From positions 1-64,000 of the forward strand of contig NC_012489.1 in the NCBI RefSeq assembly GCF_000010305.1: a stretch of DNA of 64,000 nucleotides, given 5' to 3'. The position numbers were made by a program, and so were the translations under genes. The stretch is from Gemmatimonas aurantiaca T-27 (GTDB taxonomy: Bacteria > Gemmatimonadota > Gemmatimonadetes > Gemmatimonadales > Gemmatimonadaceae). This document shows, in pieces, positions 38,056 to 59,129 of the stretch (position 1 is its first letter; each line of letters begins with the position of its first letter). Below the pieces are notes generated by a model that was given only the letters and a program-made list of their open reading frames with translations, did not search any database and was not told where the DNA came from.

Positions 38056-38111
38056 AGGCCAATGTGGGAGAGCGTGGAGTCTTTTGCTCTTTCAACAAAG
38101 GGGCGTGAATA

Positions 38112-38281
38112 GCTGGAACACAGATAGCACAGATCGACCAACAGCATTGCACAGATACTGCTTCATGGAAGCTGAGGATCTTTGAAAGCGACCATTTCAA
38201 TCATTTTGATCTGATCTAGAATGTGGCTGTTCGCTGTATCTGTGTGATCGCAGTTCCCATCTGCGCCATCTGTGTTCCAGC
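38112..38281. repeat. Nested palindromic intergenic element, copy A
   Basis: Outer arms 38112-38134 and 38259-38281 are complementary over 23 bases with two mismatches, beginning gctggaacacagat. Inner arms cacagatac (38150-38158) and its complement (38236-38244) nest inside. The remaining sequence in this 557-base parA-upstream gap (37912-38468) holds parS sites and a terminator but no gene I can support. A related element with the same outer/inner plan is at 56669-56786. Confidence 0.7.
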
Positions 38282-38373
38282 CGTTCACGATCTCTGTTGA
38301 ACGCCCATGATTGTGAATCGCGCGCCCAAAGCACGGTCGATATCGGCCGATCTCCCATTCGAAGCCATCACGG

Positions 38374-50439: not shown

Positions 50440-50579
50440 TATATCCGTGTCTCTCTCTCCAAAGAAGATATTGAGAGGTCTACTATCACGTTTTCGAGCC
50501 AGGCGGTTCAGACCACTTTTGTTGTTCCTCAAACCGAGCTGGGCGACTTGCGAATAACACCGCTTTCTATAAGCAAGGC

Positions 50580-50609
50580 GGACCTGCTGGTATGTATACC
50601 AGCAGGTCC
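50580..50609. promoter_or_regulatory. Palindrome P1 in the hipB/AbiEi-like divergent region
   Basis: Two 14-base arms (ggacctgctggtat and its exact complement) flank a 2-base centre. The core TGCTGGTATRTATACCAGCA is shared with P2, while the four outer bases on each side differ but remain complementary. Compensated outer bases argue for a selected dimer-binding site or paired repeat. It is 83 bases upstream of the AbiEi-like ATG. Confidence 0.8.
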
Positions 50610-50640
50610 ACCCCACTTCTAGAAATTCTTCTTTCATGAA

Positions 50641-55243: not shown

Positions 55244-56656
55244 ATGTTCCGCTCTCCGGCGACCCGCTCCCGTCCCCTGCGTGCGCTGCTTTCGGCGGCC
55301 GCGCCCTTCGTTTTTGCGTCCAGCCCGGCGCTCCTCACGGCTCAGGCAGCCACACCGGCCACGGCACCAACCCCGGTGCCCTCGTCCGAAGACCCGCGGA
55401 TCCACGAGATGGTCTCGTCGGCCTCCGTGGCCCGCATTGAAAGTGATATCCGCACGCTGGTGGCGTTTGGCACGCGGCACACGTTGTCCGACACCATGTC
55501 CACCACCCGCGGTATCGGCGCCGCGCGGCGCTGGATCTACGCCGAGTTCCAGAAGATTGCCAAGGACTGCAATGGCTGTCTCGAGGTCCGGTACGTGGCG
55601 GAGATCTGGAAGGGCGATCCAAATGGCCGCATCAAGCAGGACGTGAACGTGGTCAACGTGGTGGCCATTCTGCGCGGGCGCACGGAGCCCAATCGCTACG
55701 TGGTGCACACGGGTGATATCGATTCCCGGGTGTCGGACGTCATGAATGCGACATCGGAATCGCCGGGTGCCAACGACAATGCGAGCGGCATCGCGGCCAT
55801 TCTCGAAGCGGCGCGTCTGCTGTCGAAGCATCGTCCCAATGCCTCCGTGGCGTTTGTGGCGCTGTCGGCGGAAGAACAGGGGTTGTTTGGTGGCGAGATC
55901 GTGGCCAAGGTGGCCAAAGCCGAAGGCTGGCGCATCGACGCCGTGATCAACAACGACATGGTGGGCAACACGCGCGGTATCGATGGTGTACATGAAAACA
56001 CCAAGGCGCGTGTGTTTGCGCCGGGATTGCCGGCCAACACGCCAGCCGCCGAACTGCGTCGCATTCTCACCAACGGTGGTGAACTCGATACCCCGTCGCG
56101 TCAGCTCGCACGTTACATCGACACGGTGGCCGATCGCTATTTCCCGAACCTCGATGTCGAGATCATCTACCGTCTCGACCGCTACGGACGTGGCGGGCAT
56201 CACACGCCGTTCTTCAACATGGGTGCAGCGGCCGTGCGTCTGATGGAAGCACACGAAGACTACACCAGACAGCACCAGGACCTGCGCACCGACAAGGGCA
56301 TCAAGTACGGTGATGTGCTGGAAGGTGTGGACTTCGACTACGCGGCGAAGATGACCGCGCTCGATGCGGCCACGCTGCTGTCACTGGCCTGGGCGCCTGC
56401 CGCGCCCGATTCGGCCACCATCACCGGCGCCGTACAGCCGTCAGCGCGCTTGCGCTGGAAGCCGTCGCCGTCGCCCGACGTGATCGGCTATCGTGTGTAC
56501 TGGCGCAAGCCGAGCGAAGTGAACTGGACGCGTTCCCGCTTCGTTGGCAACGTGACGGACTTCACGGTGCAGAATGTCATCATCGACAACTACTTCTTCG
56601 GTGTGGCAGCGGTGGGTCGCAACGGACAGGAGAGTCTGGTGGCGTTTCCGCGCTGA
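55244..56656 (+). CDS. Exported M28-family metallopeptidase
   Basis: The 470-residue protein has a signal peptide (PLRALLSAAAPFVFASSPALLTAQA) and an M28 aminopeptidase domain. Zinc ligand regions are HTGDIDS (near 152), NDNASGIAAILEAARLL, the catalytic EEQGLFGGE, the NNDMVGN Asp and GGHHTPFFNMG His. The C-terminal 90 residues form a fibronectin III-like domain (ARLRWKPSPSPDVIGYRVYW). The stop lies 13 bases before a perfect inverted repeat. Peptide or small-protein degradation outside the cytoplasm is likely. Confidence 0.93.
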   Translation: MFRSPATRSRPLRALLSAAAPFVFASSPALLTAQAATPATAPTPVPSSEDPRIHEMVSSASVARIESDIRTLVAFGTRHTLSDTMSTTRGIGAARRWIYAEFQKIAKDCNGCLEVRYVAEIWKGDPNGRIKQDVNVVNVVAILRGRTEPNRYVVHTGDIDSRVSDVMNATSESPGANDNASGIAAILEAARLLSKHRPNASVAFVALSAEEQGLFGGEIVAKVAKAEGWRIDAVINNDMVGNTRGIDGVHENTKARVFAPGLPANTPAAELRRILTNGGELDTPSRQLARYIDTVADRYFPNLDVEIIYRLDRYGRGGHHTPFFNMGAAAVRLMEAHEDYTRQHQDLRTDKGIKYGDVLEGVDFDYAAKMTALDAATLLSLAWAPAAPDSATITGAVQPSARLRWKPSPSPDVIGYRVYWRKPSEVNWTRSRFVGNVTDFTVQNVIIDNYFFGVAAVGRNGQESLVAFPR

Positions 56657-56668
56657 GCGGGGAAAAGC

Positions 56669-56786
56669 GCACAGCGGGGGGAACACTGATCACCCAGAAA
56701 CGAAGCAGATCGGCACAGATACAACAAAGAAAAATATCTGTGATTTCTGTTTTGTTTTTGTGTGATCAGTGTTCCCCCCGCTGTGC
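56669..56786. repeat. Nested palindromic intergenic element, copy B
   Basis: Outer arms 56669-56693 and 56762-56786 are perfectly complementary over 25 bases (each arm includes ggggggaacactgatcac or its complement). Inner arms cacagata (56714-56721) and tatctgtg (56735-56742) nest inside, and the loop is A/T-rich. It fills the 142-base space between the convergent M28 and GDSL genes, so it could act as a bidirectional terminator. Copy A at 38112-38281 has the same plan. Confidence 0.85.
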
Positions 56787-56798
56787 ATACGAACGCTG

Positions 56799-57551
56799 CT
56801 ATCGACCCAGAGCCTTGCGAATACCGGCCTCCACCAGCGGGGCCATCACGCGATAGCCGGCTTCATTGGGGTGCACGCCGTCACTGCCATACTCGGCACG
56901 CAATCCCTGTCGGGCATCGGCCATGGGGGTGTGATAATCCACGTAGGTGTGGCGGTGTGAAGCAGCGTACTGTTTGATCCAACGATTGAGTGCGACAATC
57001 TTCGGTGCCGGTTCGAGACCGGGCTTCCAGCGGTAGTCGAACACGGGTAGTACGGAGCACAACACCACGCGAATGCCGTTCGCGGATGCCAGTTCGGCCA
57101 TGGACGCGATCTTGTCCTCGATCATCTCGAGCGTCGACGGGCCCGTATTGCCCGCGATGTCATTGGTGCCGGCCAGAATCACCACGGCCACCGGCTTGAG
57201 GGCGATCACATCCTGCCGGAAGCGCAGGAGCATTTGTGGTGTGGTCTGGCCGCTGATGCCGCGTCCGATGTAGGGCTTGCCGGGAAACATGGCCGGGAAG
57301 AACGGCACCCAGCCTTCGGTGATCGAATTGCCCATGAACACCACACGCCGTTCGCCGCGTGCCGGCGCACCGATGCGCGCATTGTCTGCCTGGTAGCGGG
57401 CAAGATTCGCAAAATCGATCGATGACACCGACTGGGCCTCGGTGTTCATGGGTAACAGGCCGAAGGCGAGGGTGAGCAGGGTGGTGCGCAGTCGCAGGAG
57501 TCGTCGCATCAGCGGAGGCATTCGTGTGAGCATTGGTACGGGCACTGGCAT
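56799..57551 (-). CDS. SGNH/GDSL-family hydrolase, exported
   Basis: The protein of about 250 residues has a signal peptide (MRRLLRLRTTLLTLAFGLL). It carries the four SGNH blocks: VVFMGNSITEGW with nucleophile Ser, GRGISGQTT, LAGTNDIAG and the catalytic DGVHPNEAGY near the C-terminus. This is a lipase/acetylesterase-type fold; some such enzymes deacetylate glycans. The start is uncertain among ATGs at 57551, 57533, 57521 and 57509; longer frames upstream would be antisense to the acyltransferase gene. Confidence 0.9.
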   Translation of the reverse strand: MPVPVPMLTRMPPLMRRLLRLRTTLLTLAFGLLPMNTEAQSVSSIDFANLARYQADNARIGAPARGERRVVFMGNSITEGWVPFFPAMFPGKPYIGRGISGQTTPQMLLRFRQDVIALKPVAVVILAGTNDIAGNTGPSTLEMIEDKIASMAELASANGIRVVLCSVLPVFDYRWKPGLEPAPKIVALNRWIKQYAASHRHTYVDYHTPMADARQGLRAEYGSDGVHPNEAGYRVMAPLVEAGIRKALGR

Positions 57552-57608
57552 GTCGTGATTCTGCGATCGCGTTGTCAGCGCCGCTACCCGACGTTTTCTT
57601 ACGCCGCC

Positions 57609-59129
57609 ATGAGCGAGTTCCGGCCGCCGCGCGCGCCTGCGCCCACATCCCCTCTGGGTGCTCCGTCGGAAGGCCACCCCGCCATTCGCTGGCTGGTGCG
57701 CGCCCTGGCCCGTCGTTGCCTGCACTGGTCGTTCCGCGAGGTGCACCTGTTTGGTGCCGATCAGGTGCCCGCCGAGGGCCCGCTGCTGCTCATTGGTAAC
57801 CACCCGAACGACCTGCCCGATGTGCTGCAGGGGTTCTTCGTGACCCGAAGACCGCTACGCTACATCGCGACCTTGTCCGCGGCCTCCAGTTGGCCGGCCC
57901 GGAAGGTATACGAAGGGCTCGGGGTGATTCCGGTCGTACGGGTGCGAGACGCTCGCGCTGAGCGGCGAAAAGGCACCGACATGAAGGCCGTGAATGCCGC
58001 CGCTGGAAATCTGGTGGGAGAGGCCCTGCTGGCCGGTCATGCGGTTGGCGTGTTCCCGGAAGGTGGTGTGCACAACGTGCCATACGTCGGCAAACCACGA
58101 GCCGGTGTTGTGAAAATGCTTTTTGAGTATTCCGATAGTGGCGCGAAAGATCTGACTATCGTGCCATTTGGCGTGCAGTACGAGGCGCCAAGCCGACCTG
58201 GGAGTGACTGCTGTGCCGTGATCGGACCTGGCTTTTCGCTGCGCGCCTGGCGTGAGGCGAAGTGCGTGGATGGCGATGGGTCACCGCGGCCGCCAAGTCT
58301 TTCGGCTGAGCTCGCCACTGCCTTGCATGACGCCTTACGCGCGGTCACCCGCAATGCACCCACCTGGCCGGCGGCAGAAGCACGTGATCGTGTGGTGGCC
58401 GCCGTCGCCGCTGGACTCGATACCAACGATCCGCTCCGCGCCGCCATCGGACTGGTCCGCCATGCCGAAACGCTGGCCGAGTGGTCCACGGAAAACGAAC
58501 CGTCGGCCATGCTGGTTCGCATGCAAACGATAGCCGATGAGCTCGCTGCAGCGGTGGAGCGCGCCCGTGGTATCGGGACCTCGGCGCGCGATCATGCCGA
58601 TCTGCGCGCGGCGCTCACCGGCGCTACCACTCCCGCCGGAACGGTCAGCGCGCTCGCCATCGGGGCACCGTTCGCCGCCGTGGGATGGTTGATCCACGGA
58701 CCGGCGTTTGTCGCCGTCTGGAAGCTGGCCAGGCGACTGGCCAAGGCGCCGGTGGACCTGATCGCGCTCACGTATGTACCTGGGCTCTACCTGGTGCTGG
58801 TCTGGTACCTGATCTTCACCGCGTTCCTTGCGGCAGGACTGCACGTTGCCGGCATCGGTGCGTGGTGGGCGTTGCTGTTGCTCCCGGTTGCGCCGCGGCT
58901 CGGTGATGTGGCGGTCGCCTGGCGACATCGGTGGCGCCGATGGCGATTCATGGCACGGGTGCGTGGCTGGTCTGAGCCCGAGCGGCAGCGGCTCGCCACG
59001 GCTTATGTGTCGCTGGTGGCACAATGGGCGGAATCCGACCCGGATCCACATCCGGATTCGATTAAACTGCCTCATTCGCCGCGCAGTGCTCATTGTCGCA
59101 ATTCCACAGCAGGTTCGCAGCAGGCATGA
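57609..59129 (+). CDS. PlsC-type acyltransferase with C-terminal membrane domain (paralogue)
   Basis: The 506-residue protein has an N-terminal acyltransferase domain with GNHPNDLPDVLQGFF (HPNxxxD-type motif), GVIPVVRVRD, FPEGGVHN and VPFGVQYEAP. Membrane segments near the C-terminus (ALAIGAPFAAVGWLIHG, LYLVLVWYLIFTAFLAAGL, WWALLLLPVAP) follow a helical linker. The domain plan matches the protein at 15353-16747. The ABC-F start overlaps its stop (ATGA), so the two are translationally coupled. The ATG at 57609 is preferred over one at 57555, which would precede the conserved region by 18 more residues. Confidence 0.86.
   Translation: MSEFRPPRAPAPTSPLGAPSEGHPAIRWLVRALARRCLHWSFREVHLFGADQVPAEGPLLLIGNHPNDLPDVLQGFFVTRRPLRYIATLSAASSWPARKVYEGLGVIPVVRVRDARAERRKGTDMKAVNAAAGNLVGEALLAGHAVGVFPEGGVHNVPYVGKPRAGVVKMLFEYSDSGAKDLTIVPFGVQYEAPSRPGSDCCAVIGPGFSLRAWREAKCVDGDGSPRPPSLSAELATALHDALRAVTRNAPTWPAAEARDRVVAAVAAGLDTNDPLRAAIGLVRHAETLAEWSTENEPSAMLVRMQTIADELAAAVERARGIGTSARDHADLRAALTGATTPAGTVSALAIGAPFAAVGWLIHGPAFVAVWKLARRLAKAPVDLIALTYVPGLYLVLVWYLIFTAFLAAGLHVAGIGAWWALLLLPVAPRLGDVAVAWRHRWRRWRFMARVRGWSEPERQRLATAYVSLVAQWAESDPDPHPDSIKLPHSPRSAHCRNSTAGSQQA

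Follow-up and report, generated by a model that had tools for sequence, protein, structure and literature searches.

The closest described systems are the REP and REPIN repeats and their RAYT genes. According to excerpts of the papers cited here, RAYT genes stand between inverted copies of their cognate REPs, with which they coevolve (PMC2817692), a REPIN is an inverted doublet (PMC3116915), and a REP carries a GTAG- or CGTC-type tag at one end (PMC3733652). The palindrome described below and its candidate partner gene, GxxExxY, share much with REP/REPIN and RAYT as these appear in excerpts of three papers (PMC2817692, PMC3116915, PMC8266576): dispersed extragenic palindromes in many copies, each made of two inverted units with a variable spacer and able to form a hairpin; a gene with a cognate repeat on either side; a separate repeat family for each gene; and arms that diverge together with the protein. 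There are also differences. The enzyme is here predicted to be a PD-(D/E)XK nuclease, whereas RAYT is an HuH tyrosine transposase; the arms are about 50 bp long and, in the family at large, consist of iterated 8–9-nt units; there is no GTAG head, and the copies number tens rather than hundreds.

The element lies in a 64-kb stretch of DNA, which as a whole is called the window here. Its features, together with a second palindrome in the window, are the following.

56669..56786, no strand: palindromic element of family (a), 118 bp; the genome has 25 two-armed copies, this one included
56669..56693, + strand: left perfect arm, 25 bp, family consensus ACAGCGGGGGGAACAC[AT]GA...
56762..56786, − strand: right perfect arm, 25 bp
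56694..56761, no strand: inner part, where the arms pair imperfectly (to 41 nt each); holds the cacagata/tatctgtg units and a short loop specific to this copy
55244..56656, + strand: upstream convergent ORF, 470 aa, stop 12 bp before the element
56799..57803, − strand: downstream convergent ORF, 334 aa as listed, stop 12 bp after the element
38104..38289, no strand: second, diverged palindrome, 31-nt arms (87%), GGAACACAGAT-type units

The outer arms (56669–56693 and 56762–56786) pair without mismatch over 25 bp and stand 68 nt apart; imperfect pairing extends them to 41 nt at 90%. The perfect arms, their spacing and the inner arms cacagata (56714–56721) and tatctgtg (56735–56742) are as the sequence-only reading had described. 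That reading also had the element exactly filling a convergent intergenic gap. The flanking genes do converge (stops at 56656, + strand, and 56799, − strand), but the element fills the gap nearly, not exactly, because 12 bp remain to each stop. The 142-nt region 56657–56798 folds on the + strand at −87.5 kcal/mol (shuffled mean −35.5, z −14.9), a value reached by none of 200 shuffles, and on the minus strand at −75.4. Within the 64-kb window no other perfect inverted repeat (gap below 250) reaches 20 bp; after block shuffling, 20 windows together contain two inverted repeats of even 14 bp. The stem measures 25–41 bp and, by reading, no T run follows the outer arms. GTAG is absent from the 118 bp, and the element ends, read from the sequence, are GCACAGCGGGG. 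The Rfam matches of the element were only microRNA precursor models below their gathering scores, and were set aside as generic long-hairpin matches.

The second palindrome (38104–38289) was not picked up by the family (a) search. It matches a family (a) element near 179.4 kb weakly (82% over 49 nt, E 6e-5) and, judged from this similarity, is probably an older relative of the family. The window also holds a 30-nt inverted repeat (83%) with a gap of 2 nt at 50564–50625, by eye unrelated to the element studied.

A search of the element's own genome (G000; 4,636,964 bp, one contig) gave 95 matching stretches at E ≤ 10. Those at E ≤ 1e-3 were merged by hand into 27 places, 25 two-armed and two one-armed; two weaker one-armed places lie beyond these. 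Two of the two-armed copies are interrupted, one by an IS-type insertion (135004–136418), the other by a 1.3-kb insert (3406266–3407681). Alignment of the 25 two-armed copies gives common arms of about 52 nt each. The loops range from 9 to 149 nt and are unrelated from copy to copy in the 22 copies compared, a set that leaves out the two copies with large inserts and the shortest copy; the copies from which loops were cut out are 113 to 253 bp long. Four loop–loop matches were found at E ≤ 0.01, each of 17–20 nt, and they appear to be residual arm sequence.

The two arms of one copy agree more closely (0.83) than arms of different copies do (0.715; 28 nt, 24 copies, permutation p 0.0002). Letters private to a single copy and yet present in both of its arms were observed four times against 0.44 expected. 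Such coupling would be expected from copying templated by the hairpin, or from selection on the hairpin, and is in part a matter of subfamily structure. The IS-type ORFs inside the palindrome at 135 kb look like an IS3 pair. The end sequence of this IS-type element also adjoins half-palindromes at 535049 and 4263721, a pattern that points to recombination between IS copies.

Family (a) is present in one of 30 genus genomes, that of the window itself; the same search in the other 29 found no member. The site in the window is empty in relatives: the gap between the conserved flanks is 42 bp in G005, 49 bp in G002 and 42 bp in G007, against 166–179 bp in G000. In G008 some 4 kb separate the two flanks. 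None of five other family (a) sites with an orthologous flank in G002 holds the family there. At the equivalents of the 64.6-kb and 135-kb sites (L139, L147), G002 has a different long palindrome, read by eye; one of these has nested inner palindromes, and the sites look as if reused. One palindrome is present in G007 at a site where G005 lacks it. The family is multicopy and species-specific, and its sites are empty in relatives. The earlier description of the element as REP/MITE-like agrees with these data, while the alternative it had named, a local terminator present once and conserved at this site in all relatives, fails on both counts.

Target duplications, which the sequence-only reading had proposed to look for, were not seen: none of the 25 copies has one of at least 4 bp (shuffled mean 0.39), a comparison made with no close empty site to fix the exact junctions, the flanks of the relatives being too diverged. 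Reading of junctions between G000 and G002 and between G005 and G007 gave presence/absence cases only, the intergenic DNA being too diverged; neither a transposition event nor an excision product nor an exact junction was seen. In 20 of 25 copies the base immediately outside the family consensus is complementary to its counterpart on the other side (shuffled mean 12). Insertion of the element into a terminator loop was considered and dropped, because complementarity outside the arms reaches only 1–2 bp. The palindrome in the window is very likely a mobile, species-specific REPIN-like repeat.

Four GxxExxY genes (TIGR04256/PF13366) are found in G000. Each has a long inverted repeat at its 3′ side, and all four palindromes are different, one palindrome family per gene; after merging by hand they occupy about 27 (the family in the window), about 8, 14 and 8 places. 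Family (a) is the palindrome of the gene at 136.46–136.79 kb, which stands between the IS-split palindrome (135004–136418) and an intact copy (136847–137004). At the loci examined, GxxExxY is the only candidate partner found between such repeats, and family (a) is likely to be paired with this gene.

GxxExxY is a widely annotated gene name for which we know of no assigned function. The portions of the open-access literature searched mention it only in passing. No report of its association with palindromes was found in open-access full texts, subscription journals and preprints lying outside the scope of that search. All 11 members scanned exceed the cut-offs of the TIGR04256 and PF13366 profiles; searches of PADLOC, and of the PDB by sequence, gave no match. 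The putative catalytic residues are conserved: E30, D69, K81, Q93 and R119 are invariant in 46 sequences, and E79 and Y97 nearly so. A structure model (pLDDT 92.6, pTM 0.83) resembles SSO0001, which we take to be a Cas4 protein (Z 9.8, rmsd 4.7, 100 residues aligned), and its Foldseek matches include lambda exonuclease, LHK-Exo and Hjc. The best reading of the model is a predicted PD-(D/E)XK nuclease, Cas4/Hjc-like, a shared fold not showing function. The predicted fold and catalytic residues are those of the Cas4, lambda exonuclease and Hjc nucleases; unlike these, GxxExxY is a single domain of about 120–150 aa linked to palindromic repeats.

The association between GxxExxY genes and palindromes extends beyond this genome. 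In a set of 34 loci (the 30 best in the bacterial family and the four of G000), the 5′ and 3′ flanks form an inverted repeat with a score of at least 14 at 23, compared with 2 of 126 control pairs. Adding 29 loci from seven genus genomes brings the set to 63, and at 59 of these an inverted repeat scoring at least 15 lies no more than 450 bp from the match; among length-matched random segments from G001 and G002, 69 of 640 reach this score. The four family loci with no clear inverted repeat are L104, L167, L172 and L187. The gene lies between the arms at 28 of the 59 loci, and a closed palindrome is found on the 3′ side at 19 and on the 5′ side at 12. The layout recurs across phyla. In a scan with one GPGLLE-type pattern, for which the best 80 of 586 loci were kept, 60 of the 80 reach a score of 15 compared with 22 of 135 control segments from the same loci, and 53 reach 18 compared with 10 of 135; a clear inverted repeat is missing at 20 of these best 80. 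The record titles include Alpha- and Betaproteobacteria, Chloroflexota, Bacteroidota, Acidobacteria, Planctomycetes, Verrucomicrobia, cyanobacteria and methanogenic archaea.

Palindromes adjacent to the gene are also repeated in other genomes. In the complete genomes G001 and G002, 7 of 10 have at least two further places in a sampled 400 kb (7.7–8.5% of the genome), and 3 of 10 have no further copy in that sample; among random segments, 22 of 300 have at least one further place. A 3-kb query from a single GxxExxY locus matches 111 stretches in G005 and 92 in G007, several per copy. At that locus, one genomic slot (G005:C11, G007:C223, G008:C13, G004:C174) is occupied by different GxxExxY genes in close relatives, G005 and G007 among them, and by none in G004. 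G005 and G007 are 96% alike in the loci compared and 87–90% in most longer stretches. Among 72,556 plasmid records, 8 match the protein, and one locus was found in viral contigs; this near-absence from plasmids and viral contigs is unlike ordinary transposons.

The arms are built of short units, for example CACAGAG, CACGGAG, CGCAGAG and CACGAAG, which recur every 8–9 nt (233 of 312 spacings counted). Units inside one arm are identical in 0.65 of pairs compared with 0.20 between elements. Agreement between the arms of one element is 0.70 compared with 0.19, a value biased because the arms were chosen by complementarity; the within-arm figure is free of that bias. Protein identity and arm similarity are correlated (Spearman 0.33, p 0.0005; 1711 pairs from 59 loci), which joint inheritance alone would also lead one to expect. 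A conserved terminal hexamer, AACNG[CA], was considered as a general trait and is not claimed as such, because only 11 of 30 genus loci carry it at both ends.

Several other explanations were weighed against a REPIN-like repeat with GxxExxY as its enzyme. The palindromes could be of use to the host, as bidirectional terminators or stabilisers of mRNA ends between convergent genes, with GxxExxY a mere passenger that uses the loops as a safe site. Their location speaks for this: of 22 copies classified with a heuristic gene caller, 14 have convergent neighbours, 7 tandem and 1 divergent ones, compared with 6 convergent among 39 gene pairs in the window, and 19 of 23 examined copies are within 30 bp of a gene's 3′ end. 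The hairpin is moreover very stable, and 4 of 17 loops contain a further terminator-like hairpin (z < −2). However, placement at gene ends can also be caused by survivor bias; the palindrome is not needed in relatives, since the family is absent from the other genus genomes and its sites are empty; and a random passenger would not give four genes each with a different multicopy palindrome family. We consider this explanation unlikely. A system of the known RAYT/REP type would share the REP–gene–REP layout, the species specificity and the rule of one family per gene. The element has no GTAG head, and the system is not RAYT/REP because the complete G000 genome has no match to PF01797, the RAYT-type (Y1) transposase profile, while 5 of 14 control genomes are positive; we give membership of that system almost no credence. 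A classical MITE cross-mobilised by a DDE transposase is also very improbable. Like MITEs, the copies are short, non-coding and numerous and have terminal inverted repeats; against this, they lack detectable target duplications and their loops are unrelated. No DDE transposase with the same ends was seen at the loci examined, and the IS-type ORFs of the 135-kb copy sit inside the palindrome, i.e. they were inserted into it.

The remaining alternative is an RNA-level element like the intervening sequences (IVS) of 23S rRNA, a hairpin with a small ORF spread by an RNA-templated route. TIGR02436, which we take to be the family of the 23S rRNA IVS protein S23p, consists of four-helix-bundle proteins, and standalone TIGR02436 genes of the same bacterial family (L348–L377) share the layout: 28 of 30 loci have inverted arms at a score of at least 15, and 24 at a score of at least 18, the arms often being runs of 7-nt tandem units. 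According to an excerpt of one paper, the terminal inverted repeats of the Coxiella IVS likewise pair into a 28-bp stem whose loop contains the ORF (PMC4990558). The joint change of the two arms of a copy would suit such a route as well. The copy in the window, on the other hand, lies between protein-coding ORFs and not in rRNA, the arm units at GxxExxY loci measure 8–9 rather than 7 nt, and the predicted GxxExxY fold is not a four-helix bundle and groups with DNA nucleases, a fold that leaves room for RNA as well. An RNA-level element is in our view improbable. The TIGR02436 layout either extends the class of such repeats or is a caution against taking the encoded protein for the cutter: palindromic arms alone do not make it so, because TIGR02436, a non-nuclease, has a similar layout.

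The best reading is a REP/RAYT-like system with a Cas4/Hjc-like nuclease as its enzyme. The palindrome would be a non-autonomous, REPIN-like mobile repeat, and its cognate enzyme would most likely be the GxxExxY protein encoded at 136.46–136.79 kb. The nuclease would recognise the iterated arm units, in duplex or in an extruded or single-stranded hairpin, and cut there; replication and repair by the host would then insert a copy elsewhere, and the insertions that survive would be mainly those at the 3′ ends of genes. From the comparisons above we infer that GxxExxY binds and cuts the palindromes cognate to it, that it is what spreads them, and that a copying step is involved. Taken as a whole, a REPIN-like mobile repeat with the GxxExxY nuclease as its cognate enzyme seems to us reasonably probable. 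A broader proposal, on which we are evenly divided, sees in the GxxExxY genes with their palindromes a widespread class of palindromic repeats, mobile or self-maintaining, which occurs in many bacterial phyla and in archaea and depends on a single-domain PD-(D/E)XK nuclease as its driver; the standalone TIGR02436 four-helix genes with their 7-nt-unit arms would form a second, parallel class, two unrelated small proteins having converged on inverted iterated arms.

The pairing of one gene with one palindrome makes the idea directly testable in vitro. If GxxExxY acts on the palindromes that flank its own gene and processes them, many long intergenic palindromes in environmental genomes would be accounted for by a single small enzyme family, and a nuclease-based counterpart would be added to RAYT/REP.
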